Part shown: piece after piece, positions 1,836-19,768 of the stretch
Layout of the letters: every line of letters begins with the position of its first letter
Position numbering within the stretch: the stretch's first letter is position 1
DNA from: a virus
Strand: one strand, 5' to 3'
IMG/VR virus record: IMGVR_UViG_3300010370_000229
Span: 1 to 24,865 of that record
Length of the DNA: 24,865 nucleotides
The notes under the pieces: generated by a model
Told to the model about the DNA's origin: nothing
The model's database searches: none
What the model saw: only the letters and a program-made list of their open reading frames with translations
Translations under genes and position numbers: made by a program

Positions 1836-1839
1836 GGTA

Positions 1840-2544
1840 TTATCCTATGCTACTTAAATTTGTTAGTGTTTGAATTCTTACAGTGTAATCAATTTGAATT
1901 AGTCTATTCAAGCTTTTTTGCACAGGATGAAAAATAACATGTGTTAGTAATTTACCTGTTGTTGTTAGACCCGAGCTGCCGTCTGTGCTTCTTGCTTTGA
2001 GCCCAAGCTCATCAAATGTATAAGTATCTTCAAGATTTGTGCTATTATCAAACGCACTCTGACCGGCTGGTTCACCGTAATCTAGCAAGCAACTGATCAC
2101 AATGTCAGTGTACACACGACCAGGTACGTGTCTGATTTCCATTTTATTTCTAGTCGGATCAGCATTTAATGCGCTAGTATTATCCACTATTTTAGCAAAA
2201 GTTGGATTATATAGATTACTGTTGCTTGTGTTTATATTGGGCGGCAAATAGTTTATAATGCCAGTAGGATCCACACTGGTGCCACCGTTACCAAAATGCA
2301 TTTCGTAGATATAACTTTGTCCTTTGTTGGTAAGATTATACGCAATAGCTTCGCTTATATTCTCATAATGTATGGCATTTCGTTTATCTACGTAAACTTC
2401 GCCTGATTCAGGATCAAAAATTTTGATGTGCCCTTGTACGTGTATGCCACCAACTTCGTTGGGTTTAGCGGCATCTTTAGTAGAATCTTTTTGTAAATCG
2501 TCCATATTTTTATCCATATTACTATTTAGTTTGAGATCTGTCAT
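1840..2544 (-). CDS. Small virion protein of unknown role, between baseplate and fibre genes
   Basis: This 234-residue protein has no signal peptide or membrane segment. The first 30 residues are charged and look disordered (Lys/Asp/Asn-rich). An ordered core follows: GGIHVQGHIKIFDPESGEV at 32-50, then VDKRNAIHYENISEAIAYNL, and a C-terminal beta-rich part with LLTHVIFHPVQKSLNRLIQI at 199-218. I have the impression these motifs recur in structural genes of aquatic myoviruses, but I cannot name a family. Its ATG overlaps the stop of the giant gene as ATGA (2541-2544), a standard arrangement for coupled translation, and the fibre gene follows after 4 bases. T4 has gp8 (334 residues) downstream of gp7, so a wedge or fibre-connector role is possible by position, but I see no convincing gp8 similarity. 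Virion component: fairly likely. Exact role: unknown. Confidence 0.7.
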   Translation of the reverse strand: MTDLKLNSNMDKNMDDLQKDSTKDAAKPNEVGGIHVQGHIKIFDPESGEVYVDKRNAIHYENISEAIAYNLTNKGQSYIYEMHFGNGGTSVDPTGIINYLPPNINTSNSNLYNPTFAKIVDNTSALNADPTRNKMEIRHVPGRVYTDIVISCLLDYGEPAGQSAFDNSTNLEDTYTFDELGLKARSTDGSSGLTTTGKLLTHVIFHPVQKSLNRLIQIDYTVRIQTLTNLSSIG

Positions 2545-5500
2545 GGTATATAACTAGGCTCCGCTCTAATAAACTGTGCTCCTATAGTGGTACTATTTTG
2601 CAATGTTGTACTAAACTGTTCCCAAATATTGCTACGTAATATCGGAGTACTTGATAATACTACATTACCATTGGCAAAAACTGAGCCCAATACAGCCACC
2701 GTTACCACATTTGCAGTTGTGCTAGACACGCCTCCGGTAATACTTACCACGTTAACTCTTGTTCCTATATTTGACCCAGTTAAGAATGTGCCTGCAATGC
2801 TATCAACTGCTATCACATTGCCCGACGTGACTTTACCTAATACTCTGACATTTGCGGTGTTACCAACAAACTGTGTGATATAGTCACCAACATTGGCTGT
2901 AATGTTGGCACTTAGTGTTATTTTGTAAGTGACATTAGATGTTACTTTTACATTTCCTGACACTGTTGCTGGGCCAAATATTTGTGCGTTTGGTATCAAC
3001 TGTATGATGGTGCTATCTGATACTGTGTTACCTTGTAAAATAATATTTGCGGGTCCGGTACCATCAACTCCTCTACGCAACTGTCTTAGAGAATTAAGTT
3101 TGATTAATTGTATGTTTGCACTGTTTATGTAGGCATTTGCATTTGCATAAACGTTGCCCTTAGTAAGATACACATTACTGTTTACTGAAATCAATGTGTT
3201 AACTGGTATATTGGTATTTGCAGTCCAAGGTAGCGCAGTAGACAGTTTTGCGAAATCATATTTTTGATAATATTGTATTTTTTCACCGTTTACAAATATT
3301 TCACCTGGTTTTCCTAAAGTAGGATTTGGAGTGGGTAGAACATTGGCATTTGTAACTAGTATTTCGCTGTCCAACAATTCAAGATTAGCAGATAACGTGG
3401 TAGTGGAATTGGCACTTATTCTTGTATACACTAAATTTCCACTCATTGGTTTAAATACTCTAAAACCGTATGTGGCCGTATTACCAACTGTGTTACCAAA
3501 CACACGCATTTCTAATGCATCATACAATCTTCCTGGTAATAATTCTTCAGGTGCATGGCTAGAATAAGCATCTACGTATGCACCACCAACAATGTTAATG
3601 TCTTGAGGTCTAATACCTAGATTGCTATCTAAATATGTGCTGTACACATTACTATCTAAAATATCTTTGAGATCTAGGTAACTTATTTTTACGTCAACAT
3701 TACCGCCAGGATTTATTTCAGCAATATTTGCTGTAATTGTTGTTCCGTTGATAGTGACCAAATTACCTGTTGACACATCAAACGAAGGTGTTGAATAAAT
3801 TATTGAAAGATATTGGGAGTTAACTACAGATTGTAATATGTAAGCATTTGCTGTATTATTAGCCTGAGTAATCCAATCTCCTACATTTGCAGTTACAGGA
3901 TTGTCTAATAATATTTTCCAGGTAGTTTCCACTGGCTGACCAGTAAGTGTCATTGAATCTCTATTTACACTAATAATGCTAAAGTAGCCATTGTTTTGAA
4001 AAGCAAACGGTACGTTTGCTTCAATTCGAATACTTTGATCCAACTCGAATCCTGCGTTGACAAAATCAAAAGCTGCAATGTTACCACTGTCAATTGTCAG
4101 ACCTTCATAACTGAATGATAAAATATTGCTAGAGACTTCAAACGCATTGGCTCTAAAACCTGGACCTTGTAAATAATTACCTGGATAACCTACTCCATTG
4201 ACCAATTGACTTAAATTCTTGCCTGCCATGCCAAGTTCGGGCTGATAATATGCCACTATTCTATCTAATGCATTCAATAAAACATTGCCACTGTCAATGC
4301 GACTGTATCTAGTGAAGTCAAATATAGATTGACTACTGATATTAGCATTTGTTGCCAAAAACGCTTGATTGTTATAAACAATAATATTTCCAGAGGTTAT
4401 GTAAACATTGGATTTGTCAACTGTTGTGTTTCCTGCAACTACAAGGGTATTGCCGTAAGCTGTGTTAGGTTGCCACACAACAAGATTGCTGGTGTAATCT
4501 AATCTATCAAATTTGAGAACTGTATCAATACTTCTAACCAAGTTGTAACTCAAATAACTTAAACTTAAATTTCCTGCAGGAGCATAGTATTCGTTTTTCA
4601 ACAAAGGATAGGCAGTGGCACCCACCCCGTCACCATTGATAAACACATTGGGTGTTGAGGTATAACCGGATCCAGAACTTACCACTGTTATACCACTGAT
4701 TTTTCCGTTGGCAAACAGAGTTGTGACTGCTGCTGCGCCGCTACCGCCACCTCCTCTTATCTCTACATTTGGCGGAAGAATATAATTTAGGCCAATATTG
4801 CCAATAATGTAATCAGTAATTTTAAATTTATAATTGTTTGCCCAATCTGAGTAGAGTTCATTGGAGAATAACTCTGCGTCTGCAGGATCATTGATATTGG
4901 GACTCTTGTAAACTCTAGAACCACTATCATAAGCACTAGGCAAATCAAAATCTGTCCAATCACCGTAGGCAACATCTTGTTTTCTATAAACAGGCACGTA
5001 TTCTCTTACAATAGTTCTATAAGGCTTGACTTCGGCAATATAATCATTGTAAAAATTTTGATTATCTCTAACATAACTAGGAAATTCTTCTAGTTCTCTA
5101 ATACTGTGCAACACATCAATAAAGCTGGTCTTAAACACCCAGTCTGGATTTTTTTGTTCAGCAAAAATGTAGTTGATAATGGTTAAAAACAAATTATTAA
5201 ATTCAACGCTTAAATTTTCTGTTAAAATTTCTCGATATACGCTGTCATATATGTTTTGAAGTTCTAATACGGGTTGAGAGTCGTAAGCCACAGAATCATA
5301 AACAACACTATCATATCCAGCACCGACTGATACATCGTAAACTGTAGAATTAATTTCTAATGTACCGTTTTGTGCAGCTATCAGCTCCAATGTAAAATCT
5401 GGCAAAACTTCATACAGCAACCAGGTGCCTTGCCCACCATCTAAAACTTTGATGTAGTCGTTGACATCCGGAGTCAATGCTTGTATGTCACTGTAAATAT

Positions 5501-8500
5501 TGACTGTGTAATTTATGTCTTTACCAACTTGGAAAGTGTCGGCATACCAATCTTTTGGAGTCCAAAAAAGTGAGGTTTTGTAACTTTGTAATTTAAATAT
5601 TTCAAAAGTTTGAGTATTTGAATTAAAACTATAGATACTCCATCTACCCTCATAAGTTGAATCGGATGTAACTAAAACTTTATATCCATTAGCAAATGAT
5701 TCAATATCTAAATAAGTTAGATCAGCAACGTTGTTGGTCTGTGTATCAAATCCTGAACTAGGCAAAGGATCTGATAGGTACAATGTCGATGGAGTTCTGA
5801 TTAAAAGAATTGGATATTGTTTCAAAACACCATTGAGAGTTTCTATATAGTTTTGTAGTGCTACCAATCTGTTTACCAACAAACTTTGTCTAGGTATAGT
5901 CAATATGCCCAATTTATTTTGAGCTGGTAGTTGCGGATCAGGTACATTCAAACCGCGACTATCAAATCCACTTAAACTGTCTCTCAGTTTCGTAATTACT
6001 CTCAAAGGAATATTGGCAGCACCAGCTCCCTGTTGTACCAATTGCCATTCGTTGTGTAATGAATTTGTGTTTCTTACACTAGCTATATTCAAATGTATTG
6101 CTACATCGTTGCCACTCAAACTTTCATTTACATTATAAACAGCAACAGCATTAGTGTTTAATAATGCAATGTAAGGAATGTCTTGATCTTTTGGATTAGC
6201 GATGAGAGATTCTAATGCGCTAACGCTGAGAGTTCTTTTGGCTCTGTTGACGTCTACAGAAGTCTTGCCAAACACCCAGTAATAATATTTTTGACTAATA
6301 ATTCCTGTGTCTGGGTCAACTAAAGTCACTGAAGTGTAGGCAGAATTGTCAGGATATCTAGGAATTCCATCACCTACTGCATCGGCGTACTGACTAGGTA
6401 AAAATTCGCTTTCTACCCATTCATAAACTATAACACTACTGCCAGGAAATAAGCTTCCCCAATTTTTTGCTCTGTATTGTATTGATCCTTGTTCGTAATC
6501 TATAAAACTTAGACTAGATAGATTCAACCACGTTTTTCCTACCTGACGATCTGACCAGTAAAAATTACTATTGTTTATGGTGTCTGATCTGCTGGATTGA
6601 TTATAACTAGCAGGATCATATTCTTCTTTGAAATCTAGCTCTTGATCAGCTATGCCAAGTAGTTTTCCTTTGACAGGATCTAAGTAATCAAAAAAATCAA
6701 TTATAGTTTCGTTTTTAGTGTTGTATATAAACGAACTAGCTACTGCGCCTATATCTACTCTTGGTTCTTTCCTACGTATCAGTGACCATCCAGATTTTGA
6801 ATTTTGATTGTAGTAAAAATAGATACTGCCGCCTTCATTCACTATGTCAAAATCATTCGATACACCTACTGTTAAAAATTCTCCTCTCAGTGCAATAGCA
6901 GCACCAAAATTAAATCCGGTTGCTAATTCTGGTCCATAAAGTTTCTGTGAATAAGCGTATAGTGCAGGATTGTCTACATCTTCAAATGGGTTCTGCATAA
7001 GATTGTAAATGTAAACGCCACCAGCATCTAATATTAATTGAACAAACTTTGTACCAGTGCCATCAAAAGTGGTGGCACTGCCTTGTTCGAAGTCAAACGT
7101 GGTAGGAATAGCAACATCAGCACCATTGCTTCCTATTACAAGAGTATTGGTAGTTTGATCCACAGACAATGCAGTTCCAAAAATTTCGCCTGTGCTCTCT
7201 GGATGCTTGATTATTTGTACGTATTTGTATTGTTGTATGCCAAGATCAAATAATGCAGTTCCTCCGGAGTTTCCATTTACTATAGTGAGTTTATTGGCTG
7301 CTACAACTACATCGCTGATAATTTTGAGTTTATTGTTCACAGCCTCGGCAGTGACACCCGGAATGTTGGCAGAATTAATATTATTAATAACCGAAGTCAA
7401 TGAAGTTCCAGTAAACGCAACAATGATGTTATTGATTGAAAGACTATGACCTACTGTCACAGTAGGATTGGTTACAGTGCCAGTAACTACTCCATACAAC
7501 CTGCCAATGTTTAAATATCTTGTTACTAAACCAGTGGTGTATGAAGTTTCTTTGTAATTGGGACTTGTGATATAGATATTACATCCGCTGTTACACATCA
7601 CAAGATCGGCACCAAATCTTGCACCTTCTACTCCCAATGCTTCTGGATTAATTGTTTGATCAAAAATTATACCATTTGTTTCAAATCTTAGAACGTTTCC
7701 TGGCAACAAAGGATCAATACCTGGATCACCATACTGAATTGAATTTGAGCCAATTATTGTATACTGAGGGGTTACACCTTCAGGAGCATTTGTTATGTCA
7801 TAAATTAATTCATTGTTTAAATAGACTCTGTAAACAGTGCCAAAGTTATAAGGCAGTGTAAAGGTGTTAGTGATACCATTAGTTATTATTTCAGTGACAG
7901 TCACGTGCCAAGTGTCAACTGAACCAGATGCAGAAACTCCGTCAACAGTTGTATTACTGGCACCAACAGCAAAAATATACCCATCGGCACTGCACGAAAC
8001 AGCGGATCCGTAGTATGAATTTGCTGCACCTGTTGCTGTGCTTATAAAATTATATCTATTATTTCTTCTTAAGATATTGATTTCTAAGCCCACAGCTGGA
8101 GCTGTTCCAAATACCAAATTGGTTGCAGTGCCAACCGTGTTCACTGTGATTGTAATATCATTTGCCGGACTAGCTCCGCCAACGTTGGTACCAAGAATTG
8201 TCAAGGTGTCGGCCGCTGTGTATCCTGTGCCTGCGTTTTGCGTTGTCACTGTATATACACCGCCAGTTTTTTCTACAAAAAACACAGCGCCTGATCCTGT
8301 GCCACCAGAGGCAGAGATTCCGTAATAGCTGTTTGTGCCACTAGCGGCGGTTCCTGAGGTGCTAAATGAACCGATCGCTTGACTAGCACTGGACAAAGTA
8401 TAATCTACATAAGGAAAATACTGAGATATCAACGCAGGTACACTGACTATGAAGTCAATTGGTCTGCTTGCTGGCGAAGCCAATGTGTATGTAGTTGCGC

Positions 8501-11500
8501 CTGAGGTTGTAATTATTTGTACTTCGTTGGCACGTGGATATTCAAAAGCATAACAGTAGACCTTATCTGTGCCCGGAGATCCTACATATAGATATTTGGC
8601 ATCGTCGGACATTGCAATGCTTGCGCCAAATTGATCATCGGCTGCTGGCGTATCGTTGGCCAAAATTTGAATCAGAATCTGATTCTCAAAAATGTAGACC
8701 ACGCCACCAGTGGCACTGTCGGGTGCACCTACTGCAACATAACTTACGCCGTCTACTGTTGCAGTGGCCAAGGTTTTTCCGAAACTATCAAGATTAACAT
8801 TGTTACCGGACAAAAATCCATATGAATCCCATCCGTTGTTTATATTTCTTGCAAACACACTAACACGACCTCGACCACTGTCAGGAGCTCCGCCTATTAA
8901 AAACAAAGCCTTACTATCAAATGCTACCGATCTACCAAAATGGTCGTTGCCTGAATATTGACTTTCGCCTAGTTGAATTTTAGCTTCAAACTCCCAAGGA
9001 TCAGTTTTTCTATAAACACCCCAGTTGTATTCACCATCTAAATTATTAACCCACACTGTGTCATTGGGAATGTATCCATTAAACGGAACGTTACTTACTA
9101 ACTCTATTGGTGTTTCGAATACCGCACTTTGTAATTTGTAAAGTATGCCGCCATTGCTTATAACTGCTTCATTGTCAATTAATTCTTGTAAATTTGATGT
9201 GATAGTAATTAAAAATCTTTCGCTGTCAATTACGTGATCAACCTTGTATATGCCATCGTATCTATCATCAAAATTCTTTAAAACAACCAGATCATTGACT
9301 GCTAGGCCGTGATCGGCATTCATAACCAATTCTGCTTGAAAGTTCACATTGTATCTTAAAATAAACGGAACTCCGGGAACGTTAGTGGCTCTGTAGACAT
9401 TCCAATGATTATTTAAATCTCTGGCAGTCCAAATATTAAAGCCTGAACCAATATTTTGTATTATGTTTTGCGTATCTGTTGGAGATTGTATATCAAAGAT
9501 CAAAGCATCTACATCATCCAAATTAGCGTACCCTGCCACAGGCAATGGTTTAAGTTCAGCTGGCTCACTGTTAGATTCAACCCTCAAGAAATCAGGATTG
9601 AACATCATGTTAGTTTTGTATATATCAGACTCACTGAAGGATTTAATATCAATCTGTTTTGTTGATGCTGCCGACACCAATTGAAAAACTGCCGGGTTAT
9701 TATCAAACTCTGCATCTGACAAAATAAATTCTATGAACTGATTAATGTCATTGGATCCGTACTCGCCTACTCTAATTGCCCAGTTTTCAAAAACTGATAA
9801 CGGGTTTGTATCCAAATTGTTAAACCGAGCTCCTTTAAGGGCATCAATGGCATTCATTGACCCGCCCTGTTTTATAAGTCCTTGATAAAATTTACTTTGT
9901 GTTGTGACATCAATTCCTAAGTTTGTAAAATATTGTCTTGGCCTAAACCCTATCAAGCCATTACTATAAAGTTGAATTTGTTCGTTTAATGGTTGATCAT
10001 TTATATCATAAAAACGCAAAGATTCGCTTGCATTGCTAGCTAGATTGTTGATTACACCAGTTTTAACTTCGTCTTGATTTAATAGTTGCCAACTGTTTAC
10101 TTGAAATGTATCTGCTGCACTGACGTTATCTAATGCTGCATATATTCTTTCTTTGTAATTTATCAAGTCGCCTTTTAAATAATCTACTCCTGTTTGCCAT
10201 TCAGGTATTTCTTCACTGCTGTACAAATACCCAGGTAACTCAAGACTTCCGTTCCATTGATTAGTTTTAGCTCCGTTTATTTTTATCCTAAACTGTCTAT
10301 TGCCAGATTCTGGTTGATAAATTATATCTCTAAAAGCAGTGATGTTGTCTAAAAGCAGTAGGTGTTCGTACTGAACTAAATTAAATTCTGCTAGTCCAAT
10401 AGTCTGATTTGAAAATGCTTTGATAGAAAATTGACCACTGTCTCTCACAACAGTAAAACTATTTTTCTTGATAGGCAAATAATTAATGTCTATTATTCTA
10501 CTGCCTTGGGTAGTATTAGTGATTTCGTCTACCACTGCTGATGTATTGAATATTTTTAATTCATTAGATATTGGACTCAATACAATAATATTTCCTATCT
10601 TCCATCCTTGGCTGGTCCAATGTAAAAATTCTTTGGCACTTAGAACCCAATTTTTAATTTCATTCAGTTGATTTTCTTTGTCCTCAAAAATAAATCCTAA
10701 TGAATTAAGATATCTTTGATAACTAACCAAAAAATCAACGACTTGTTGTACTGTATTAAACTCGAATCCGTAAGGCACAAGTTGAATCACATTACGTGCG
10801 TCTTTAAAGATAGTGGCTCTTTTTCCGCTGGCACTGATAGTGTATGCATTGTTGTTAGGCAAACTAGGAATAATTTTAAAGTAAGGATCATTGAGATTAT
10901 AGCCGCTCACAGTGTATCCGTTGACCGATTTTTCTATAATAACTGCAGAATAAACAACTTTTGCTGCAGGCGCCCCTTTATACAGGCTTATTGAATAATT
11001 TTCATCAGGAATAAGCACACTGTCATTGATACTACTTGGACTAATTTGTTCTGCTAATAATTCAACAAAGTTTTTATCAGAATATCCAGCCATTTTATAA
11101 GAAAGTTGCACTGATAATTTGGTCAAATTATTTTTAATAACGGTACTTGCGTCTGCAACACCATTGTTTTTAATTAAATCTCGTATCCAATTTATATAAC
11201 CTGCACTTCTAGTCACCGTACCGTCGTCGGCAATATAACCATTTACTCTAATCGTGCTTGGTTGCAAATGTTTCCTTGAGTTGGTGTCAAAAAACTGTCC
11301 TAACACTGCGTCTCGTTGATATTTTTTGACATCGGCCATTATAGAAAAATATACAGCTGGTTTTGCTATAGCCAGAGCATATTGCATGGCAAATGCAAAA
11401 TCACTGCTACGTCGCCAAGCTAATTCTGTTGGGCCAATATCTCCTACTGAGTAACTGGTATTGGCTTTGCTACTGTCAAAATCTGTAACCAAAAACTCCG

Positions 11501-14500
11501 ATGGCGGGCGTAGATTACCGCTATCATCTACCGGAATAATGCTTGTTAGTCCAGGACGATTATATCTCAAATCGATACCAGCACGAGGACCAGCGTGTAT
11601 ATACCCTATTTCTAAATCGCTCCAGAGTACAAAATTACCGCCGGTATACGGTGCAGGTCCATATCTATCGTTCCAGTAATCAGGTTTCTGACTGAAACCC
11701 AGCATTTCCCAGGGATGCGTATGCGGACGATCTGTATCAAAAAAATGTCTAAATACGCTACGCCATGTGCCCGGCAACGATTCTGCATTAATGACATCTC
11801 GAAACTTTTTATAGTTCCAAGTAAATGCATCACTTGCATTAAAAGTATCATTGGTAGTAAAATTAACTCTGTTGGTGCCTACCCAGCGTAGAAAACTTTG
11901 ACTTAACAGTTGTGTAAACTCTTGTCTATTGTAATCTCTGATTCTAAATTTTCCTGGCACATAATCATTGATATTAAAGTTATTAATATTATATTCTACT
12001 TTAATATTGTTATAGATTCTGCGCTCAAGTTCTAATAAAAAGTTATCTCTAAAATCTCCAAATGCTGGAGTTAAACTGCCATCGTGCCCTTGAATTACCT
12101 GAATAGGTGTTCTATATGTGTTGTCAAGGTAAATTTCCGGAACAAACTTAGGATATAAACCCAATTTGGTTGGTGTTTCTGGTACATAACTACCGTCAGT
12201 ACTGTTGTACTCAACCACTGTTAATATATCATTGAACAGTAAATTGAATGTGTCTTTGATTACTACACTAGGTCTAGTTTGATCAAAATAATAATCTTGG
12301 TCTTTAACTAACAATGTAGTGCTGGTTACATTTTCCAAAGTTCTAGTAAGATAAACAAATACAGCTTTGTTGCTTATTTCTTTGTCTTGGTAAATGTTTG
12401 TAATTTCATAAGCTCTAATATCAGTATCAAATACTCTATAACTTGGCAAAGTAGTTTTTTCGTCGTCGCCGTGTGGTACCATGTCACTGTAATGCCAAGG
12501 AAAACTATCATTTTTAACAGCATTAATTGCGGCCATAATAGTGTCAACTGACTGAGCTACATTATTTCTATCTAGTTCTAAATTTACTGCTAGTTCTAAG
12601 AATTTAATTTTAAACTGGCTGTATTCTCTTGATGCCAACGTTACAGCGTCTATAAAATTCATTGTTGGATGATTGAGAAATAAACCGCTGTAAATTATTG
12701 GCGCACTGTGTTGTAAAATGCTGCCTCCGCGATCTTTTATATCAATATCTCTAATATTACTTTTTCCTGGCACTTCTCCAACGATGTCTAAGCTATTATT
12801 TTTGAATTCAATTAAATGATTTCTAATTTGACCCAAAGTTAAAGTTTCAACATCAGTGTTTAAACTATTAATATCAAGATTCACAGGAATTTGATAAAAA
12901 CCTTCATTGGAGGTTGATTGACTGCTATACAAGCTTACAAAAACAACATCGCCGGCCTTAAGTAGACTACTGTCGACAAGAATTGCAAGTTTATTAACAG
13001 TGTTTGTTATTGCAAATCTGCCCGATGGCACTGGTTTATTATTAATGACAACTTTGATATTGGGCGAGTCAGTACTCAGATCTGGTAACATATCAACTGG
13101 AAATAAATTAGTTGATCCGTCATATACAAAATTAAAATTTTGGTACTGTTTACTAAAGTATGAATTTATAGTCCAATTGTTCAGTCGAATACTTGTATCT
13201 CGAGATAAATTTTGTTGTATTAATCCAGTATTGATACTAATATCCTGAGATCTTCCTCCTTGAATTAGATAAGAAAAAGTGTCAAGATTATAATTATTTT
13301 CAAAAATTATATCGCCTTGTGTGGTCAAGTTTTTATAACTTAACGGAAAGCCTAATACACTGTCATTATTGCCGGTGCCTTGTTTGTAAGAAAATAACTT
13401 TGTACCTGAAAATTGTGACCCGTTGTAAACCGAAAAATTTGAAAAACTGATACCATTGTCGTCTATTATGTCAAATAACGGGGCCTGGTTAATGGTTGTT
13501 TTTTGTTGACTCGCAATCCAATCTGTACCGCTGTAATACCATTGTTTTGATCCGTTTTCGCCATTTTTTACAATAATGGTGTGCCCTTGAGCCATTTCTG
13601 CATCGCTAGCTTCTTCGATATAGGCTCTATAAACAGTGTCTAGAGCTGATGGAGTAGATGCTGCAACAATTGAAAAATTGAAAATTTTATTTCTAACATC
13701 GTTGTTTTCATCAATGCTAAAAATTACTCTGTTGCCATTTTGCAGTATCAACGGATTGGCATCAGTGGCTGAACCATTTCCTGAGGTTGTGTTACTAGCA
13801 ACAAATTGGTATTTGTAAACAGATCCAGTGGTGTTTGTGGTAACTGGTCCGGTAGCGGTAAACACTGTACCTACAATGTTGGCTGCTGCACCTACTGTGG
13901 TCCAATCAGTGGTACCTACAGATGAAATAATGTATTCTGTATCGGGAATAATACTGGTAGCATCAACGGCAAGAGCGCCTACCAATGACCAATTGGTTGT
14001 TGATCCTAGTGTTGTAATTTTATATGATCTACCAACTACCAAGTCACTTGAACTTCTCACATCATTGATTACCATTTCAGTTGGTACAACAGGTTCTATG
14101 TCTGGTACAATGATACCTTGTACCTGTGTGTAAGCATTGGTTATAAAAAAGTTATCAAGAATATCTATAGGATCTTTGGCTTGCGTTCCAAAATTAAACA
14201 GTTGTAAATCTGCATTAAATTCAATGATTGGCCTTTGTGCTCTGTAATTTTGATTTAGAACTAAATCAATGTTGTTATATTGAGCAGTTTTTTCAATAAT
14301 ATCAACATGAAACCATCGATTACTTCTTGACCATCCATTTAAATCAATACTACTTCTATTAATAGTGATATAATCGGGAGTCTGAACATCATTGAGTTCT
14401 GGGAATACCAAATCTGACGCTCTGATTAATTTAATTGCCTTGCCTACTCCATCAACATAGTAAGTTTTATTGGCATAATCTTCTGATGCGGTAGAATCAA

Positions 14501-15845
14501 ATGTAACTTTTAGTCCGTTAGAAAATATTACTCCATTGGGACTGATATAATTTTTTTGTCCAACAATTTCTGTAGCTGGATCTATGTTAATTGCCTCAAC
14601 ATCAACTAGTAAAATACCGCCAACTGTTTTATCGGATTGATCGCTTTGATAGTATAGTAGGGTTTGTGGTGCAGTAATAGCAGGTACTTCATTGAAGATA
14701 TCAAGTCTACTGTAAAACTCTTTACCTGCATTAGTTGCTCCCGATGTTACTCTTACTTTTTGCTCATTGATGACGCTGGTTTTTCTTTGTAAGTAAACTC
14801 TTGCGTCGTCGTTTTCGTCGTTGTAAATTGTTATTTCGTAACTGTCATTGCGTTCACCAATGGGTATCAATTCATCTTGATCTAAATATATGACCTCCTC
14901 TAGTACCCGGGCAGTATTGTGCCAAAACACATCATCAATGTAAGCTGTATTAACAAATATTAAAGTGGCTCCATTTAATGATGACGTCGGACCATCAATG
15001 CCACCTAGTGTATCTTGAAGATCGCTCACTAGGCAACCTTGCAATGATTGATAGCTATGATTAGTTGCAAACTCAACTGTGTCAGCAATGGTCATATTGG
15101 TCCATTGTACTTGCGAATCGGCCAATGGCGCTTGAAATATAACGCTGCCGACGTCCTGTCCGTTATTGGTTACACCGTAAACGTTTCTCGTGTTCAAATT
15201 TGGAGCATTGGGATCTACACCCAATGAACCGGGGCTAGACTGTATATAAAATTTGTTGCCGGGTTCGTTGATTTGAAACACGTACCGTCCGCCTCGAGCA
15301 AGTGTAAGCAAAGGATTAGGGGTATCGTCAAATCCGGTAAATCTATAAGTTTGAGACAGTGAATCATAAACCACAGTAAAAGTTTGCTCTAACGGAACTG
15401 TAGAAGCGGTCACTTGTACTGCGTCAGGGCCATTTGCCAACCAATAGTACTGTGCAAAATTAATAAATTTATCTAAGTCAATCTGTGGATTATATGAATA
15501 AAATTCATTACCAAATAATCTTGAATGATTATTATTGAACCCACCGTAGTATTCAATTTTGTTAATTATATCAACATAGGTAGTAGCAAAATCTAATTTG
15601 CCTGATACAGGATCTTTAATAATTACACTAGGTTCAAGTTGATAATCCTGTCTAATTTTTGTAGGCTCAGTGATGTAACTATCCGTTGATCGGTACGAAG
15701 GGGCTAATTTCCTACCAATGTATCCGTTAACTTTTATTATATCAGGTTCACTAACTAATTGATCAACAGTGGCATTCAAGAACTTTCTATTTGTGTCAGT
15801 TCTAAAAATTTCTGGTAAAAATTCTAGTGTTTTAAAAGCTGCCAT
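2541..15845 (-). CDS. Giant modular baseplate-wedge/tail structural protein (4434 aa, gp7 position)
   Basis: This is one uninterrupted ORF of 4434 residues, near 490 kDa at 110 Da per residue. The start is supported by AGGA six bases upstream of the ATG in the 12-base gap after gp6. Landmarks in order: an N-terminal domain (FLPEIFRTDTNRKFLNATVD at 9-28; YYWLANGPDAV near 135); a double beta cassette at 602-666; a conserved-looking core with VIQGHDGS and FGDFRDNFLLELERR (about 1227-1280) and HTHPWEMLGF (near 1373); a second VNGYI motif near 1530; seven FG-GAP-type propeller blades at about 2299-3025; a YDS pentapeptide repeat at 3511-3523; a segment with EVKPYRTIVREY (within about 3569-3619); a GSGYT cassette at 3698-3745; HAPEELLPGRLYDALEMRVF (near 4090-4110); and paired TANVGD modules at 3983-4048 and 4313-4382. 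No signal peptide, transmembrane segment or enzymatic motif is evident. Its place between gp6 and the fibre genes is that of T4 gp7 (1032 residues), the wedge scaffold; homology to gp7 is not shown. It may combine wedge and fibre functions. That it is a virion structural protein is near certain; the detailed role is inferred. Confidence 0.85.
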   Translation of the reverse strand: MAAFKTLEFLPEIFRTDTNRKFLNATVDQLVSEPDIIKVNGYIGRKLAPSYRSTDSYITEPTKIRQDYQLEPSVIIKDPVSGKLDFATTYVDIINKIEYYGGFNNNHSRLFGNEFYSYNPQIDLDKFINFAQYYWLANGPDAVQVTASTVPLEQTFTVVYDSLSQTYRFTGFDDTPNPLLTLARGGRYVFQINEPGNKFYIQSSPGSLGVDPNAPNLNTRNVYGVTNNGQDVGSVIFQAPLADSQVQWTNMTIADTVEFATNHSYQSLQGCLVSDLQDTLGGIDGPTSSLNGATLIFVNTAYIDDVFWHNTARVLEEVIYLDQDELIPIGERNDSYEITIYNDENDDARVYLQRKTSVINEQKVRVTSGATNAGKEFYSRLDIFNEVPAITAPQTLLYYQSDQSDKTVGGILLVDVEAINIDPATEIVGQKNYISPNGVIFSNGLKVTFDSTASEDYANKTYYVDGVGKAIKLIRASDLVFPELNDVQTPDYITINRSSIDLNGWSRSNRWFHVDIIEKTAQYNNIDLVLNQNYRAQRPIIEFNADLQLFNFGTQAKDPIDILDNFFITNAYTQVQGIIVPDIEPVVPTEMVINDVRSSSDLVVGRSYKITTLGSTTNWSLVGALAVDATSIIPDTEYIISSVGTTDWTTVGAAANIVGTVFTATGPVTTNTTGSVYKYQFVASNTTSGNGSATDANPLILQNGNRVIFSIDENNDVRNKIFNFSIVAASTPSALDTVYRAYIEEASDAEMAQGHTIIVKNGENGSKQWYYSGTDWIASQQKTTINQAPLFDIIDDNGISFSNFSVYNGSQFSGTKLFSYKQGTGNNDSVLGFPLSYKNLTTQGDIIFENNYNLDTFSYLIQGGRSQDISINTGLIQQNLSRDTSIRLNNWTINSYFSKQYQNFNFVYDGSTNLFPVDMLPDLSTDSPNIKVVINNKPVPSGRFAITNTVNKLAILVDSSLLKAGDVVFVSLYSSQSTSNEGFYQIPVNLDINSLNTDVETLTLGQIRNHLIEFKNNSLDIVGEVPGKSNIRDIDIKDRGGSILQHSAPIIYSGLFLNHPTMNFIDAVTLASREYSQFKIKFLELAVNLELDRNNVAQSVDTIMAAINAVKNDSFPWHYSDMVPHGDDEKTTLPSYRVFDTDIRAYEITNIYQDKEISNKAVFVYLTRTLENVTSTTLLVKDQDYYFDQTRPSVVIKDTFNLLFNDILTVVEYNSTDGSYVPETPTKLGLYPKFVPEIYLDNTYRTPIQVIQGHDGSLTPAFGDFRDNFLLELERRIYNNIKVEYNINNFNINDYVPGKFRIRDYNRQEFTQLLSQSFLRWVGTNRVNFTTNDTFNASDAFTWNYKKFRDVINAESLPGTWRSVFRHFFDTDRPHTHPWEMLGFSQKPDYWNDRYGPAPYTGGNFVLWSDLEIGYIHAGPRAGIDLRYNRPGLTSIIPVDDSGNLRPPSEFLVTDFDSSKANTSYSVGDIGPTELAWRRSSDFAFAMQYALAIAKPAVYFSIMADVKKYQRDAVLGQFFDTNSRKHLQPSTIRVNGYIADDGTVTRSAGYINWIRDLIKNNGVADASTVIKNNLTKLSVQLSYKMAGYSDKNFVELLAEQISPSSINDSVLIPDENYSISLYKGAPAAKVVYSAVIIEKSVNGYTVSGYNLNDPYFKIIPSLPNNNAYTISASGKRATIFKDARNVIQLVPYGFEFNTVQQVVDFLVSYQRYLNSLGFIFEDKENQLNEIKNWVLSAKEFLHWTSQGWKIGNIIVLSPISNELKIFNTSAVVDEITNTTQGSRIIDINYLPIKKNSFTVVRDSGQFSIKAFSNQTIGLAEFNLVQYEHLLLLDNITAFRDIIYQPESGNRQFRIKINGAKTNQWNGSLELPGYLYSSEEIPEWQTGVDYLKGDLINYKERIYAALDNVSAADTFQVNSWQLLNQDEVKTGVINNLASNASESLRFYDINDQPLNEQIQLYSNGLIGFRPRQYFTNLGIDVTTQSKFYQGLIKQGGSMNAIDALKGARFNNLDTNPLSVFENWAIRVGEYGSNDINQFIEFILSDAEFDNNPAVFQLVSAASTKQIDIKSFSESDIYKTNMMFNPDFLRVESNSEPAELKPLPVAGYANLDDVDALIFDIQSPTDTQNIIQNIGSGFNIWTARDLNNHWNVYRATNVPGVPFILRYNVNFQAELVMNADHGLAVNDLVVLKNFDDRYDGIYKVDHVIDSERFLITITSNLQELIDNEAVISNGGILYKLQSAVFETPIELVSNVPFNGYIPNDTVWVNNLDGEYNWGVYRKTDPWEFEAKIQLGESQYSGNDHFGRSVAFDSKALFLIGGAPDSGRGRVSVFARNINNGWDSYGFLSGNNVNLDSFGKTLATATVDGVSYVAVGAPDSATGGVVYIFENQILIQILANDTPAADDQFGASIAMSDDAKYLYVGSPGTDKVYCYAFEYPRANEVQIITTSGATTYTLASPASRPIDFIVSVPALISQYFPYVDYTLSSASQAIGSFSTSGTAASGTNSYYGISASGGTGSGAVFFVEKTGGVYTVTTQNAGTGYTAADTLTILGTNVGGASPANDITITVNTVGTATNLVFGTAPAVGLEINILRRNNRYNFISTATGAANSYYGSAVSCSADGYIFAVGASNTTVDGVSASGSVDTWHVTVTEIITNGITNTFTLPYNFGTVYRVYLNNELIYDITNAPEGVTPQYTIIGSNSIQYGDPGIDPLLPGNVLRFETNGIIFDQTINPEALGVEGARFGADLVMCNSGCNIYITSPNYKETSYTTGLVTRYLNIGRLYGVVTGTVTNPTVTVGHSLSINNIIVAFTGTSLTSVINNINSANIPGVTAEAVNNKLKIISDVVVAANKLTIVNGNSGGTALFDLGIQQYKYVQIIKHPESTGEIFGTALSVDQTTNTLVIGSNGADVAIPTTFDFEQGSATTFDGTGTKFVQLILDAGGVYIYNLMQNPFEDVDNPALYAYSQKLYGPELATGFNFGAAIALRGEFLTVGVSNDFDIVNEGGSIYFYYNQNSKSGWSLIRRKEPRVDIGAVASSFIYNTKNETIIDFFDYLDPVKGKLLGIADQELDFKEEYDPASYNQSSRSDTINNSNFYWSDRQVGKTWLNLSSLSFIDYEQGSIQYRAKNWGSLFPGSSVIVYEWVESEFLPSQYADAVGDGIPRYPDNSAYTSVTLVDPDTGIISQKYYYWVFGKTSVDVNRAKRTLSVSALESLIANPKDQDIPYIALLNTNAVAVYNVNESLSGNDVAIHLNIASVRNTNSLHNEWQLVQQGAGAANIPLRVITKLRDSLSGFDSRGLNVPDPQLPAQNKLGILTIPRQSLLVNRLVALQNYIETLNGVLKQYPILLIRTPSTLYLSDPLPSSGFDTQTNNVADLTYLDIESFANGYKVLVTSDSTYEGRWSIYSFNSNTQTFEIFKLQSYKTSLFWTPKDWYADTFQVGKDINYTVNIYSDIQALTPDVNDYIKVLDGGQGTWLLYEVLPDFTLELIAAQNGTLEINSTVYDVSVGAGYDSVVYDSVAYDSQPVLELQNIYDSVYREILTENLSVEFNNLFLTIINYIFAEQKNPDWVFKTSFIDVLHSIRELEEFPSYVRDNQNFYNDYIAEVKPYRTIVREYVPVYRKQDVAYGDWTDFDLPSAYDSGSRVYKSPNINDPADAELFSNELYSDWANNYKFKITDYIIGNIGLNYILPPNVEIRGGGGSGAAAVTTLFANGKISGITVVSSGSGYTSTPNVFINGDGVGATAYPLLKNEYYAPAGNLSLSYLSYNLVRSIDTVLKFDRLDYTSNLVVWQPNTAYGNTLVVAGNTTVDKSNVYITSGNIIVYNNQAFLATNANISSQSIFDFTRYSRIDSGNVLLNALDRIVAYYQPELGMAGKNLSQLVNGVGYPGNYLQGPGFRANAFEVSSNILSFSYEGLTIDSGNIAAFDFVNAGFELDQSIRIEANVPFAFQNNGYFSIISVNRDSMTLTGQPVETTWKILLDNPVTANVGDWITQANNTANAYILQSVVNSQYLSIIYSTPSFDVSTGNLVTINGTTITANIAEINPGGNVDVKISYLDLKDILDSNVYSTYLDSNLGIRPQDINIVGGAYVDAYSSHAPEELLPGRLYDALEMRVFGNTVGNTATYGFRVFKPMSGNLVYTRISANSTTTLSANLELLDSEILVTNANVLPTPNPTLGKPGEIFVNGEKIQYYQKYDFAKLSTALPWTANTNIPVNTLISVNSNVYLTKGNVYANANAYINSANIQLIKLNSLRQLRRGVDGTGPANIILQGNTVSDSTIIQLIPNAQIFGPATVSGNVKVTSNVTYKITLSANITANVGDYITQFVGNTANVRVLGKVTSGNVIAVDSIAGTFLTGSNIGTRVNVVSITGGVSSTTANVVTVAVLGSVFANGNVVLSSTPILRSNIWEQFSTTLQNSTTIGAQFIRAEPSYIP
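2700..2909 (-). repeat. TANVGD beta module, copy 2 (giant protein residues 4313-4382)
   Basis: This in-frame segment contains TANVGDYITQ, then NTANVRVLGKV, then a Gly-rich beta turn region ending NVVSITGG. It matches copy 1 at residues 3983-4048, which has TANVGDWITQ, NTANAYILQSV and INPGG at equivalent spacings. The repeat is at protein level; the DNA has diverged. It lies in the Asn/Val-rich C-terminal quarter of the giant protein, which resembles fibre shaft sequence. Confidence 0.7.
3702..3899 (-). repeat. TANVGD beta module, copy 1 (giant protein residues 3983-4048)
   Basis: This is the first of two diverged copies in the C-terminal region of the giant protein. The sequence PVTANVGDWITQANNTANAY begins at residue 3983, followed by a strand pattern ending EINPGG. 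It shares the order TANVGD-aromatic-ITQ, then NTAN, then a hydrophobic strand, with the copy at 2700-2909. The two copies are about 330 residues apart and separated by the HAPEELLPGRLYDALEMRVF segment. Confidence 0.7.
4611..4754 (-). repeat. GSGYT beta cassette in the giant protein (residues 3698-3745)
   Basis: The encoded segment starts GGGGSGAAAV, continues with a strand (GKISGITVVSSGSGYT) and ends NVFINGDGVGATA. It follows the same plan as the cassette at 8133-8306: a GGxGSGA start, a strand, G(S/T)GYT, then a short beta unit. By my count 59 of 120 bases at 4621-4740 are G or C, well above neighbouring sequence. Confidence 0.6.
5277..5315 (-). repeat. YDS pentapeptide tandem repeat in the giant protein
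   Basis: From residue 3511 the protein reads YDSVVYDSVAYDS, three units with a five-residue period, and another YDSVY follows at 3533-3537. The repeat probably forms a short beta or linker structure between the segment after the propeller and the EVKPYRT segment. Function unknown. Confidence 0.6.
6765..8985 (-). repeat. Seven FG-GAP-type repeats forming a predicted beta-propeller
   Basis: Within the giant protein, seven units share an FG-start, a hydrophobic strand, a VGAP/GSP-like turn and a final strand such as GVVYIFEN. Conserved aromatic positions are F2303 (HFGRSVAF), F2355 (SFGKTLA), F2406 (QFGASIAM), Y2612 (YYGSAVSC), F2744 (RFGADLVM), F2889 (IFGTALSV) and F2980 (NFGAAIAL). Matching GAP-type turns include GGAPDSG, VGAPDSA, VGSPGTD, VGASNTT, ITSPNY, IGSNGAD and VGVSND. 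FG-GAP repeats are known to build seven-bladed propellers in integrin alpha chains and many bacterial surface proteins. The flanking strands (WGVYRKTDPWEFEAKIQL before blade 1, GWSLIRRKEP after blade 7) are well placed to close the ring. Spacings of 52, 51, 206, 132, 145 and 91 residues show that blades 4-7 carry insertions. Confidence 0.75.
8133..8306 (-). repeat. GTGYT beta cassette inserted between propeller blades 3 and 4
   Basis: Residues 2514-2571 of the giant protein read GGTGSGAVFFVEKTGGVYTV and continue through NAGTGYTAADTLTILG to NDITITVNTV. It is a compact Gly/Thr-rich beta unit on the same plan as residues 3698-3745. By my count 122 of 240 bases at 8161-8400 are G or C, compared with 16 of 60 just beside it (8041-8100), so its composition differs sharply from its host gene. 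Confidence 0.65.
13848..14042 (-). repeat. Double copy of a cassette shared by three baseplate genes (giant protein residues 602-666)
   Basis: Two tandem units are present. The first has LVVGRSYKITTLGSTTNWSL (602-621) and the second has DTEYIISSVGTTDWTTVGAA (635-654) followed by NIVGTVFTATG. The same unit occurs in gp6 (17583-17714) and in the 369-residue protein (20305-20448). By my count 55 of 120 bases at 13801-13920 are G or C, above the local background. Confidence 0.75.
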
Positions 15846-15857
15846 TTTTTATCCTGT

Positions 15858-18800
15858 TTACCCATTAATATTCAATTGAGCCGCTGTGAGAGCCGGAATA
15901 ACTTGCACGTTGTCAACTGTGGCGGCACTGACTAATATTTCATCCGGGTCTGCATTTATTTGATACAGTGTACCAAATTTACTATCTGTGTTAGATGGGA
16001 CTATTACAATGCTACTTACATACGGAACCAATGTGCTGTGTAGGTAGGCACTTAATTCACTGAAATAGAAAGTTTCGCCAAAATCCCAATTGTTAATGTC
16101 AAAAAAGGTGCTAATTGCAGCCACCACTTGACTTTTAATTTCGTTATCACTAATATTTGAGTTTGGATTTTTAACCACCTTGAATGTAGCCCTTAGAGCA
16201 GTTTCTGCTTTGTTTCCAAACAAAGGCTTGAAAACCGCAGGATTGTAAATAATGCTGTCACTGATTGTTTTGAATGCTTCAATGGTTCCAAATTCAGTTT
16301 TCAATTCAGAAATGGTAGGAGCTGTGGGCTCCGGTATCCTGTTACTAGAATCTGACAAGTACGCAAAGTAATCATTGGAATATGTCTTAGTAAGAATATA
16401 AAAATCAATAAGATTATTTGGACTAGGATCAATTCGTCTATTATTTGGGGCGTTGTGCTTGTACTGAAACTGGATGTTTTGTCTGCCAACTCTAGCTATG
16501 TAATTTGTAACAACTGATAAAGTTGCTCCACTTGACTGGTAAAATGTTGGCCCATTTTCAGCAGCTACCAGCGGATCTCCTAACGTTGCGTAGAAAATTG
16601 TGCCGGATGCATAAAGTGTTATATTGTCCAATATGTCAGATTTGGTTTGATAGGTGCCGACTACTTGTGACTGTTCGACTGGGTTGTATTCAAGAAAATT
16701 GTATTGATTAGTTGATTGAATAAAATAAACAATTTTATTTTCAGGATTTGTTGCAGGAGCAACAAAGTCTACGAATAAATCAGGATTGTCTGGTACCTCA
16801 TCTAAGTTATCGTCGGGAAAAGTTATTTTTACTTTTCTGTTATCGTCTATGCCATCGGTACCAACTGCTTTATTCCAGATTCTGTATGTCTGACTGTAAA
16901 ATATTGCGTTACTGCTGTCAGGTTGTGTGTTAATTCTTAAAATCTTAACGAAATCTACTAATGTAGTTGCTGTTCTACTATCATAAACTCTTACGTCAGG
17001 GTCAAAATAAAACCTAGTTTCTCTTTCGCTTTGAAAATAATAATCAATACCTCTGCTGACAGCAGTGTACTCACCATTGGAAAAGCTCAAACTAATGAAC
17101 CAACTGTTATCTGACCCTGTGCCAGCAGTACTTCCGGCATTGGTCAAACTAAAATCTCCAGTGCCAATATTCTGACTTTCGATAATGTTCCAACTCATTG
17201 TGGGAATGTCGTATCTGATCCCAAAAGTTTTATAACTTAAAATTTGTAAAATAATCTGATTTATAAGAGATTCTGACCAATCATTGGCAAACACAGGAAT
17301 AATTTGATCCACAATTGATCCAGTGGGAACCACAACACTTAGGGTAGCGATCGACGATACCCCTGGATCATCATAATTTATTATACTAGCCCATAGGCTT
17401 GTACGTTGATATTCAGTTTCTGGTGTACCAGGTTGTAGTTGATTCTGAGCGTCAAAATATTTTCCGACTGGGGCAATGAATTTAACCAAACTGCCTTGCT
17501 TTAGGTATGTGTAGTTAGGACTTGAAAAAATTCCTGTGCTACGGCCGGAGCTAGAGGCAGTCAGCGTCCAACTGGCCACTAATGCCACTGTGCCTGTGCC
17601 TGTGCCCACTGATGTTGCTTGAAAGATTGTGCCAACAGTGTTTGTTGAAGCACCAAAATTTGTAAAAATACTAGTGCCTACACTGATTATTTTGTAAGTT
17701 CTACCAATAACCATGGTAGTTGCTGCCACAGTTGATCCCAATGGGCTGTTTCTTGTGGCTGTATCATAATATAGATGTTTGGTAGGAATGCTTGAAATCA
17801 ATGGTTTCAAAGTATTTCTAACAATTGCATTGACTTCTGTGCTGCTGGTAAATTGAAAAACCTCAGTCTCTTCATAGTTTTCTTTATAGATGATTCCATC
17901 CTCAGAAAATATATTGGTACTAGAATACTTGCCTGTAGAATCAATCACATCAAGATATCTACTTACACCAGAACTGGTACGATTGACAGCTTTAAGTTTT
18001 AGAATATTACTAAACGTAGTATAAGGTAAAATGTTGTAATCTTCAGCAGTGACCATACGATTTTGAGTATAGTACTGCTGCGGTGCTTTTGTTCTAATTT
18101 CTTCAAGACTCTCTCTTGAAATAGCATTGGTTACTGTGTATTGTAAACTAGCTCTTATTGTGAGACTTTCAGTGCGGCCGGTACGTCCACGATAGGGAAG
18201 AACAATGCTTATTCCTGCCATTTCATCAGGAGTTATTTTATATGTTAAATTATTACTGACTCTATAGTATATTCTAAAATTACCTACAGGAATATTTGTA
18301 AAAGAACCGTCACCAAAAACTAAATCAATTTGATCGTTGGCGCGAGATGCAACGCTGTATAAATTTCTCTCATTGGTATTGTTGTAAATTACATTAATAC
18401 CATTTACAGCAGGAACTTGCGTCCATAGTGTGCCTAGATTACCGCTTGGAGTTAAACTATATAACCACACATCTGTGTTGTTAATATTATCAAAATTTAT
18501 GTTTACTATTCTATTAGATAGGCTTTCGGTAATATTAAAATCTAAGCTGTTTAACAATCCTTGTTTAAAATAGAAAAAATAACCTGTGTTGTTACTTGAA
18601 TTTCCTTGATTGTCATTTCTATACAACACATTGAAGGTAGCAGATGTGCTAGGTGTTGACTCATAAATGTATTCTTGATTGACTGCTGTAGCACTTACTA
18701 CTTCAAACGGATACGATACTCCAGCTATACTGGTAGTAAATGGATAAGTAGGAGTAATACCAGAAATAATGTCAACGCTGTATTCGTCAGTTCTAATACC

Positions 18801-19340
18801 ATTAAGATTTTTAGTTGCTCCTGGTTTTCCTATGGCCTGATTTGCTACCAATGCAGCATTTATAATGGCTGTAAATTGTTCTAACCAGTTATCATTTGTA
18901 CTATCGTTCCAACTGATTACAACATTGCTTAAATTAATTCCGGTACTGTCAAAAAGCGTTTCTGTAGTACTCACACTGTCAAATTTTAAAAACCCCGATG
19001 CCGGTGTGCTGCGCTTAGGGTTGTAACTTACCAGTCTGGCCAGTTTAAGAATGCTGTCACGTCGTTCTGCAGTATCTAAGAAATTTTCTCTAGCATTTAG
19101 ATCTGTACGAAAAGCTAAACTTTGACCTAAAAAAGCAATAAGATCTATTAGAGCTACATATTCAGAACTGTCTGTAAAATCGTTAAAATCTTCAGGATAG
19201 TAAGTACGCAAGTACTCAATCATTGCCTTGCGAATAGTTTCATAGTCAAAGCTCTGAAAGTCAGCTTCTCTGAAAGTTTGATATATTTTAGTCCAATCTT
19301 GTTGAACTAGTAAACTTGTTTGTCTTGTTGTAATAGCCAT
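15858..19340 (-). CDS. 6: Baseplate wedge subunit gp6 (baseplate J-like), enlarged
   Basis: This 1160-residue protein is a T4 gp6-type wedge protein, the dimer that joins wedges into the baseplate ring around the hub. The N-terminus is diagnostic: LVQQDWTKIYQTFREADFQS at 11-30, DSSEYVALIDLIAFLGQSLA (about 58-77), and RLVSYNPKRSTPASGF near 102-117. FGDGSF lies near 339-345, and VTAEDYNILPYTTFSNILKL starts near 428, as in the baseplate J/gp6 family. The C-terminal part (YFSELSAYLHSTLVPYVSSI, then DPDEILVSAA) fits gp6 proteins of aquatic T4-like phages. T4 gp6 has 660 residues, so this one is much longer. Part of the excess is a beta cassette at 543-586 that also occurs in two neighbouring proteins. 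It follows a 47-base gap with a possible late promoter and precedes the giant gene by 12 bases. The family call is firm. Confidence 0.93.
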   Translation of the reverse strand: MAITTRQTSLLVQQDWTKIYQTFREADFQSFDYETIRKAMIEYLRTYYPEDFNDFTDSSEYVALIDLIAFLGQSLAFRTDLNARENFLDTAERRDSILKLARLVSYNPKRSTPASGFLKFDSVSTTETLFDSTGINLSNVVISWNDSTNDNWLEQFTAIINAALVANQAIGKPGATKNLNGIRTDEYSVDIISGITPTYPFTTSIAGVSYPFEVVSATAVNQEYIYESTPSTSATFNVLYRNDNQGNSSNNTGYFFYFKQGLLNSLDFNITESLSNRIVNINFDNINNTDVWLYSLTPSGNLGTLWTQVPAVNGINVIYNNTNERNLYSVASRANDQIDLVFGDGSFTNIPVGNFRIYYRVSNNLTYKITPDEMAGISIVLPYRGRTGRTESLTIRASLQYTVTNAISRESLEEIRTKAPQQYYTQNRMVTAEDYNILPYTTFSNILKLKAVNRTSSGVSRYLDVIDSTGKYSSTNIFSEDGIIYKENYEETEVFQFTSSTEVNAIVRNTLKPLISSIPTKHLYYDTATRNSPLGSTVAATTMVIGRTYKIISVGTSIFTNFGASTNTVGTIFQATSVGTGTGTVALVASWTLTASSSGRSTGIFSSPNYTYLKQGSLVKFIAPVGKYFDAQNQLQPGTPETEYQRTSLWASIINYDDPGVSSIATLSVVVPTGSIVDQIIPVFANDWSESLINQIILQILSYKTFGIRYDIPTMSWNIIESQNIGTGDFSLTNAGSTAGTGSDNSWFISLSFSNGEYTAVSRGIDYYFQSERETRFYFDPDVRVYDSRTATTLVDFVKILRINTQPDSSNAIFYSQTYRIWNKAVGTDGIDDNRKVKITFPDDNLDEVPDNPDLFVDFVAPATNPENKIVYFIQSTNQYNFLEYNPVEQSQVVGTYQTKSDILDNITLYASGTIFYATLGDPLVAAENGPTFYQSSGATLSVVTNYIARVGRQNIQFQYKHNAPNNRRIDPSPNNLIDFYILTKTYSNDYFAYLSDSSNRIPEPTAPTISELKTEFGTIEAFKTISDSIIYNPAVFKPLFGNKAETALRATFKVVKNPNSNISDNEIKSQVVAAISTFFDINNWDFGETFYFSELSAYLHSTLVPYVSSIVIVPSNTDSKFGTLYQINADPDEILVSAATVDNVQVIPALTAAQLNING
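17583..17714 (-). repeat. Shared beta cassette inside gp6 (residues 543-586)
   Basis: The segment begins MVIGRTYKIISVGTSIFTNF and ends TVGTIFQATSVGTGTGTVA. It matches, in the same order, the cassettes in the giant protein (602-666) and the 369-residue protein (147-194): G..Y.I, then GT or GST, an aromatic, VG..F.A, and GTGTGT in two of the three proteins. By my count 31 of 60 bases at 17581-17640 are G or C. Confidence 0.75.
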
Positions 19341-19387: not shown

Positions 19388-19768
19388 TTAAGCAGCAATT
19401 ACAGTGTTAAGTTCTTTATTGAATTGTAGGACCAAAACGTCGCTTAAATCGTCCGGCAAAAAAGTCATTTCAACTTGAATCTGTAGCCCGTATTCAAATT
19501 GATCAATCAATACATTATCTACTCTGACCCTAGGATCATAATTTGCCACTCGTTGAATATCGTCAACGATCAGAGCTTTGACATCAGCACTTAATGGCTC
19601 AAATAATATATTCCAAATAATGCTGCCAAATTCAGGATTCATTAATTTTTCGCCTTTTCTAATAGCAAAATGATTTAACAAATCCCGTTTAATCAACTCT
19701 AAATCAGTCAGACGGAATTTTTTATATTGATCTATTGTACTGAAACCTCGATATCTTGTTATAGCCAT
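19388..19768 (-). CDS. 25: Baseplate wedge / sheath initiator gp25
   Basis: This 126-residue protein belongs to the gp25/GPW family (T4 gp25 is 132 residues). Members sit in the baseplate wedge core with gp6 and gp53 and act as the platform from which sheath polymerisation starts. The visible family pattern is an N-terminal helical part (LTDLELIKRDLLNHF at 20-34), the GE.LMNPEFGSIIW segment (39-52), LFEP at 55-58, then VDDIQRVANYDPRVRV (68-83) and a beta C-terminus (YGLQIQVEMTFLP). It begins 8 bases after the stop of the 369-residue gene with no clear Shine-Dalgarno, so it may depend on translation of the gene before it. Its neighbour gp6 is its known structural partner. Confidence 0.95.
   Translation of the reverse strand: MAITRYRGFSTIDQYKKFRLTDLELIKRDLLNHFAIRKGEKLMNPEFGSIIWNILFEPLSADVKALIVDDIQRVANYDPRVRVDNVLIDQFEYGLQIQVEMTFLPDDLSDVLVLQFNKELNTVIAA

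Follow-up and report, generated by a model that had tools for sequence, protein, structure and literature searches.

The window analysed here, the whole 24,865-nucleotide stretch of the virus record IMGVR_UViG_3300010370_000229, contains a giant open reading frame (ORF) that encodes a predicted seven-bladed FG-GAP propeller, which in the structural model is a closed ring of the integrin type and which, according to alignments with ring-less relatives, is itself a graft at one fixed point of a conserved scaffold. The minus-strand ORFs of this fragment form a baseplate cluster, in which hub/lysozyme-type, gp25-like and gp6-like genes are followed by the 4,434-amino-acid ORF that carries the ring. 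The explanation proposed here, whose chances we regard as evenly balanced, is that a seven-bladed FG-GAP propeller is inserted at a fixed point of a conserved jumbo-myophage baseplate-locus scaffold and bears exchangeable inserts for host contact.

Seven FG-GAP units in a giant protein

A previous reading by a model that saw only the letters (the sequence-only reading) had placed seven FG-GAP units in this protein, at F2303, F2355, F2406, Y2612, F2744, F2889 and F2980. All seven anchors were found, each with a G as the next residue and with spacings of 52, 51, 206, 132, 145 and 91 residues from one to the following. The Pfam family FG-GAP_2 (PF14312) matched an 821-amino-acid slice at 45.3 bits (cut-off 23, E-value 9.7e-12) as well as 16 out of 16 aligned homologues, and three control pieces taken between blades gave no FG-GAP match. 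In scans of single blades, FG-GAP_2 matched blades 1, 3, 4, 6 and 7 (E-values of 4e-4, 8e-5, 0.035, 0.10 and 0.0017, respectively), with blade 3 alone passing the family cut-off, and blades 2 and 5 gave no match. Profile scans thus detect FG-GAP units beyond blades 1-3 (in blades 4, 6 and 7), in line with the sequence-only reading. A leave-one-blade-out test with hidden Markov models (HMMs), compared with 273-297 shuffles, found all seven: each window blade, when held out, beat the best shuffle, by a small margin in the case of blades 5 (7.4 v 7.1) and 4 (9.5 v 8.0), and family medians were 8.8-33.6 bits versus shuffle maxima of 5.2-8.7. A profile made of blades 1-3 only did not separate window blades 4-7 from shuffles. 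Since this profile is too weak and the single scans match five of the seven blades, two of these weakly, blades 4-7 are backed by the family profile and the structure jointly.

The calcium-loop motif of integrins, DxDxDG, is not present in the window and occurs in one of 493 blades across the family. Searches of bacterial and archaeal genomes with the ring alignment gave no relative, and the PDB contained no sequence match to the whole protein or to profiles of the ring and of the scaffold. In two related loci on one contig (L004 and L105), blade 3 shows an 11-residue in-frame deletion, equivalent to SDDAKYLYVGS of the window, which is either real or an assembly error.

Predicted fold and anatomy of the ring

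An AlphaFold2 model of the ring obtained from 16 sequences (predicted local distance difference test, pLDDT, 82.9; predicted template modelling score, pTM, 0.85) closes, as the sequence-only reading had anticipated, and superposes in VIA-align 2 from about residue 2280 to 3018 on complete seven-bladed propellers. In this comparison the integrins alphaM and alphaL reached Z of about 31 (9t3y_A: 2.9 Å over 346 residues with 20% identity; 5e6s_C: Z 30.7), and WD40 proteins reached Z of 30-32 with identities of 10-18%. Integrin alpha chains were also the top matches by E-value in Foldseek searches of the PDB, and from BFVD they retrieved FG-GAP proteins encoded by giant viruses and by phages, with E-values down to 8.5e-29. 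The stretch flagged at first (residues 2288-3027 of the giant ORF, where residue i starts at window position 15845-3(i-1)) has been corrected to the limits given in Table 1. Some phage propellers are enzymes, such as the K1F endosialidase (as cited in PMC10607447), and the ring could be regarded as one of them, for example a polysaccharide-cleaving propeller whose inserts would shape the active site. However, the structures that match best, integrins and WD40 proteins, are not enzymes, no enzyme family was matched on the slice, and a Lactonase match in the single scan of blade 3 stayed under its cut-off; we consider an enzymatic role very improbable.

In each blade, a contiguous strand precedes the FG and a third strand comes after the GAP strand. 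The extra domains that had been claimed between blades were located in blades 3, 4 and 5 (155, 75 and 88 residues), in all three cases between the third and fourth strands, and a further insert of 34 residues was recognized inside blade 6, between the second and third strands. As inserts 1-3 sit in third-to-fourth-strand loops, the usual geometry of propellers implies that they should point from one shared face, and the scaffold would enter and leave the ring on this same face of the model.

Blades and inserts among the relatives

Scans of viral contigs yielded more than 100 loci (labelled L), from which 71 non-redundant proteins, that of the window among them, were compared. An iterated blade profile, refined on these same 71 proteins and used with an arbitrary cut-off of 5 bits, counted seven units in 60 proteins, six in 6, eight in 4 and five in 1. 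Median spacings in the 60 seven-unit members were 54 residues between blades 1 and 2 (range 51-628), 56 between 2 and 3 (47-154), 196 between 3 and 4 (49-298), 116 between 4 and 5 (97-221), 153.5 between 5 and 6 (135-417) and 88 between 6 and 7 (81-131). On a tree of the post-ring module with 62 tips, the class of the blade 3-4 insert, whose limits were set by the analyst's choice, requires at least 19 changes, versus a mean of 30 and a minimum of 24 for classes shuffled on the same tree, and it would therefore be partly inherited yet often altered. Three of the rings (L127, L129 and L132) are nearly free of inserts, and eight proteins keep 600-870 residues between two detected blades. In one of these eight, L141, the insert contains a carbohydrate-binding domain of the CBM_5_12 family (41.7 bits, cut-off 26.2).

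The suggestion that blades are conserved and inserts vary is supported by the seven units kept in 60 of the 71 proteins and by the turnover of insert 1, but it fails for insert 3, which is found in 15 of 15 close relatives with a mean pairwise identity of 62%, versus 60% for the ring. Being conserved to the level of the ring, insert 3 is no exchangeable part, and the conservation of the blade-6 insert is nearly equal to that of the ring. Two relatives (L010 and L011) have a big additional insert at the position of insert 3. A flagellin-IN identity, put forward for this piece after blade 5, found no profile support: the Pfam family gave no match in any of the 16 members (E≤1) or with the piece alone (E≤10).

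Insert 1 shows a further level of organization, as the small GTGYT cassette lies nested in its outer domain. Five relatives have the outer domain without the cassette, whereas three others harbour two tandem copies of it, and the cassette shares 58% identity over 48 amino acids with a stretch of one structural protein from cyanophage Syn1. Inserts 1 and 2, compared for a possible common origin, align in hhalign in a plausible register, weakly (E-value 0.033, probability 1.5%). These data could be extended to a display in three levels, with a fixed-site scaffold, the ring as a common mount, and inserts on one face that would set host range with cassettes pooled with unrelated phages, a tentative idea that we hold to be somewhat improbable. 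A different view would regard the inserts as selfish or neutral in-frame cassettes that pile up in tolerant surface loops and have no display function. Similar cassettes are found beyond the ring (in the gp6-like ORF, in the ORF at 19777-20886 and in cyanophages), and the nearly insert-free relatives agree with it too. However, several inserts are constant in most of the family (the spacing between blades 5 and 6 is at least 135 residues in 60 of the 60 seven-unit members), and the carbohydrate-binding domain of L141 is hard to call neutral; such neutral accumulation is judged unlikely.

Other repeated motifs were observed in the window and its relatives. A second in-frame cassette of about 45-50 amino acids, with the pattern G.TY.I...G.T.FT..GA, occurs in three window genes: the gp6-like ORF (residues 542-586), the ORF at 19777-20886 (residues 146-194) and the giant ORF (residues 601-630 and 636-673). 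It is also present in the ring inserts of some relatives (L033, L108, L112 and L113) and missing from others. Arrays of GSGYT-type repeats are found in the blade 1-2 insert of L083, L086 and L095 and in gp180 of Atu_ph07 (L019, residues about 1690-3110), where what seems to be the same type of cassette is repeated in tandem. Beyond the scaffold module, residues 3673-3744 of the window protein (4614-4829, minus strand) hold a GSGYT-type unit that matches PHROG 460 (head closure) with an E-value of 3e-10, although the unit is probably not a head-closure protein but a shared cassette.

Graft site of the ring in the scaffold

The giant protein is homologous to the PHROG 10938 scaffold over its N-terminal and C-terminal modules (57 and 55 isolate records, respectively). 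The post-ring module shows 29 invariant residues across 71 sequences, and its matches in 55 phage-isolate records correspond mainly to jumbo phages of 284-490 kb, two being shorter. A scaffold HMM from which the ring was excised crosses the junction unbroken in PA5oct (E-value 1.3e-19, with a 3-residue gap) and SCTP-2 (1.4e-11), and it also matches Phosso (3e-19), Atu_ph07 (4.7e-19), which has long cassette arrays near the graft point, and L091 at the junction. The FG-GAP ring is absent from the six isolates examined directly (PA5oct, SCTP-2, PBECO4, K64-1, Atu_ph07 and Phosso), and tblastn of the ring region against isolates matched the cassette alone. Moreover, the giant gene of L091/L093 is broken at the ring site into two ORFs 12 nucleotides apart (locus position 9923-9935; frames of 2275 and 1271 amino acids in L091). 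L124, L126 and L128 carry unrelated content in the ring slot (about 410, 155 and 96 residues, respectively); the fillers L124:8717-10021 and L126:5851-6375 are without FG-GAP, and a DUF4214 match in L126 is below threshold. An alignment of the L128 scaffold across the graft site, intended for fold prediction, was set aside on account of its upstream rows, which had just 10-17% identity. On the tree, the ring-less isolates group together on a single side, and the L091/L124/L126/L128 clade falls within the ring carriers. Two changes, of either direction, would therefore be enough in this quick tree with long branches. Taken as sequence alignments, these data indicate that the ring itself is a graft at one fixed point of the scaffold. 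Both the insertion of the ring in a scaffold and the nesting of the GTGYT cassette inside another insert go beyond the sequence-only reading.

The same data bear on the alternative that the ring is a structural bolt, which would stabilise wedge or fibre contacts with inserts that touch virion proteins and not the host. Related jumbo phages have no ring, and the L091/L124/L126/L128 clade has lost it or exchanged it for other content but retains the scaffold, which therefore has no need of the ring. The repeated variation in the size of insert 1 also argues against a bolt, whereas ring-like conservation of insert 3 and, nearly so, of the blade-6 insert, the position of the ring-bearing gene next to wedge genes, and the propellers present in the structural nozzle proteins of T7 and SU10 (PMC10607447) argue for it. 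A bolt is regarded here as rather improbable, and it may partly overlap with the neutral and enzymatic alternatives, as the three are not fully exclusive.

The baseplate locus

Two lines of data indicate that the scaffold family is virion material. The record of PA5oct gp355, a scaffold homologue, bears a note of electrospray ionization tandem mass spectrometry (ESI-MS/MS), and gp245 of phAPEC6 (381.9 kDa), listed next to the baseplate wedge gp244, was detected in virions by mass spectrometry (PMC7247149); its size and position suggest that gp245 belongs to this family. The position of the giant ORF, directly after the gp6-like gene, matches the order gp6-gp7 of T4, and comparison of the scaffold with T4 gp5-gp12 and gp53 (gp7 included) gave no significant HMM or hhalign match. 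The description of the protein as a baseplate or fibre component is consequently maintained in its first part by the gene neighbourhood, but the fibre label is not supported, the gene following that of a gp6-like wedge protein. The features of the locus are collected in Table 1.

Table 1. Coordinates of the giant ORF, its propeller and neighbouring baseplate genes in the window
Feature	Window position	Strand	Residues and remarks
Giant baseplate-locus ORF carrying the ring	2541..15845	-	4,434 amino acids; PHROG 10938 virion structural protein, E-value 0
Scaffold strand NWGVYRKT, upstream edge of graft site	9003..9026	-	2274-2281; ring-less scaffold HMM spans this point
Seven-bladed FG-GAP propeller (predicted)	6801..8996	-	2284-3015; 379 ring and 353 insert residues
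Insert 1	8067..8531	-	2439-2593; blade 3, strands 3/4; beta-rich; holds nested cassette
Nested GTGYT cassette in insert 1	8124..8378	-	2490-2574
Insert 2	7674..7898	-	2650-2724; blade 4, strands 3/4; beta-rich
Insert 3	7230..7493	-	2785-2872; blade 5, strands 3/4
Insert 4	7023..7124	-	2908-2941; blade 6, strands 2/3
Scaffold segment GWSLIRRKEPRVD, downstream edge of graft site	6753..6791	-	3019-3031; ring-less scaffold HMM
Post-ring scaffold module	4776..6752	-	3032-3690; common to ring-less jumbo phages
gp6-like baseplate wedge gene, immediately upstream of giant ORF	15858..19340	-	PHROG 10646, E-value 1.6e-298
gp25-like baseplate wedge gene	19388..19768	-	PHROG 261/43

A probable platform for host contact

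In the proposed arrangement, a propeller that closes has its termini next to each other, and a ring could in this way be housed in a scaffold loop and leave the scaffold undisturbed. The ring would carry domains in the strand 3/4 loops of blades 3, 4 and 5, which would project from one face, and the first of these inserts would bear a further small cassette. Seven blades would be retained because the ring must close, and the inserts would be free for gain, loss, duplication or swapping. From sequence and model, the ring and its inserts are probably a platform displaying domains for host contact, the likeliest of the roles considered, and the one that best suits a constant scaffold whose ring may be missing, bare or richly decorated. 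The position in the virion, the one-face geometry and the contact with the host are what we infer from these data.

Several observations weigh against this platform for host contact. No ligand site was identified on the ring, and a Pfam scan of ten sequences, inserts or slot fillers, found a domain above its cut-off in just one. The ring-like conservation of insert 3 suits a structural role more than a fast, host-driven change, and every ring carrier found is metagenomic and known from its sequence alone. Finally, the predicted post-ring module (pLDDT 78, pTM 0.48) had no convincing match in the PDB, the best reaching Z 5.4 over 66 residues (GVE2 ORF18), and the placement in the baseplate rests for this reason on gene order.

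Comparison with known systems

Phage tails are already known to contain propellers, and viruses to encode FG-GAP repeats. Propellers have been described in the nozzles of T7 and SU10 and in phAss-1 (PMC10607447), and no paper in the collection searched joined FG-GAP, baseplate and phage. One counterpart is gp131C of phiKZ (PDB 4GBF), which forms a propeller of seven blades on the periphery of the baseplate in this Pseudomonas myophage and for which receptor binding has been speculated; as described in PMC4901313, with which the comparison was made, the propeller of gp131C is a C-terminal domain, and FG-GAP repeats and grafts between blades are not reported. The same source describes a propeller platform in a baseplate protein for host recognition, the receptor-binding protein of phage phi11, which differs from the present ring in having five blades, in being a trimer and, by that description, in being without grafted domains of such kind (PMC4901313). 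The PHROG 10938 protein of jumbo phages (PA5oct gp355 and RaK2-like homologues) shares the scaffold and its place after the gp6-like wedge gene, but not the ring in the six isolates mentioned above. The FG-GAP proteins retrieved from BFVD, which belong to giant viruses or to uncultured phages, are likewise propellers in viral proteins, matched by fold alone.

What would be new is a grafted propeller held at seven blades while the domains between its blades turn over. The ring and its inserts would constitute a natural record of the sites where a baseplate protein accepts new domains, and the variation of host contact in jumbo phages becomes testable at defined positions. A close likeness is with the integrin alpha chains (alphaM and alphaL), which also combine seven FG-GAP blades, a closed ring and a domain grafted between blades. 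The integrin I domain is located between blades 2 and 3, whereas the phage grafts follow strand 3 in each of blades 3, 4 and 5; in addition, the DxDxDG calcium loops are essentially absent in the phage family, and the phage ring is embedded in a scaffold protein without a membrane anchor. In any case, the arrangement resembles the insertion of the integrin I domain, now in a protein of a phage baseplate locus.

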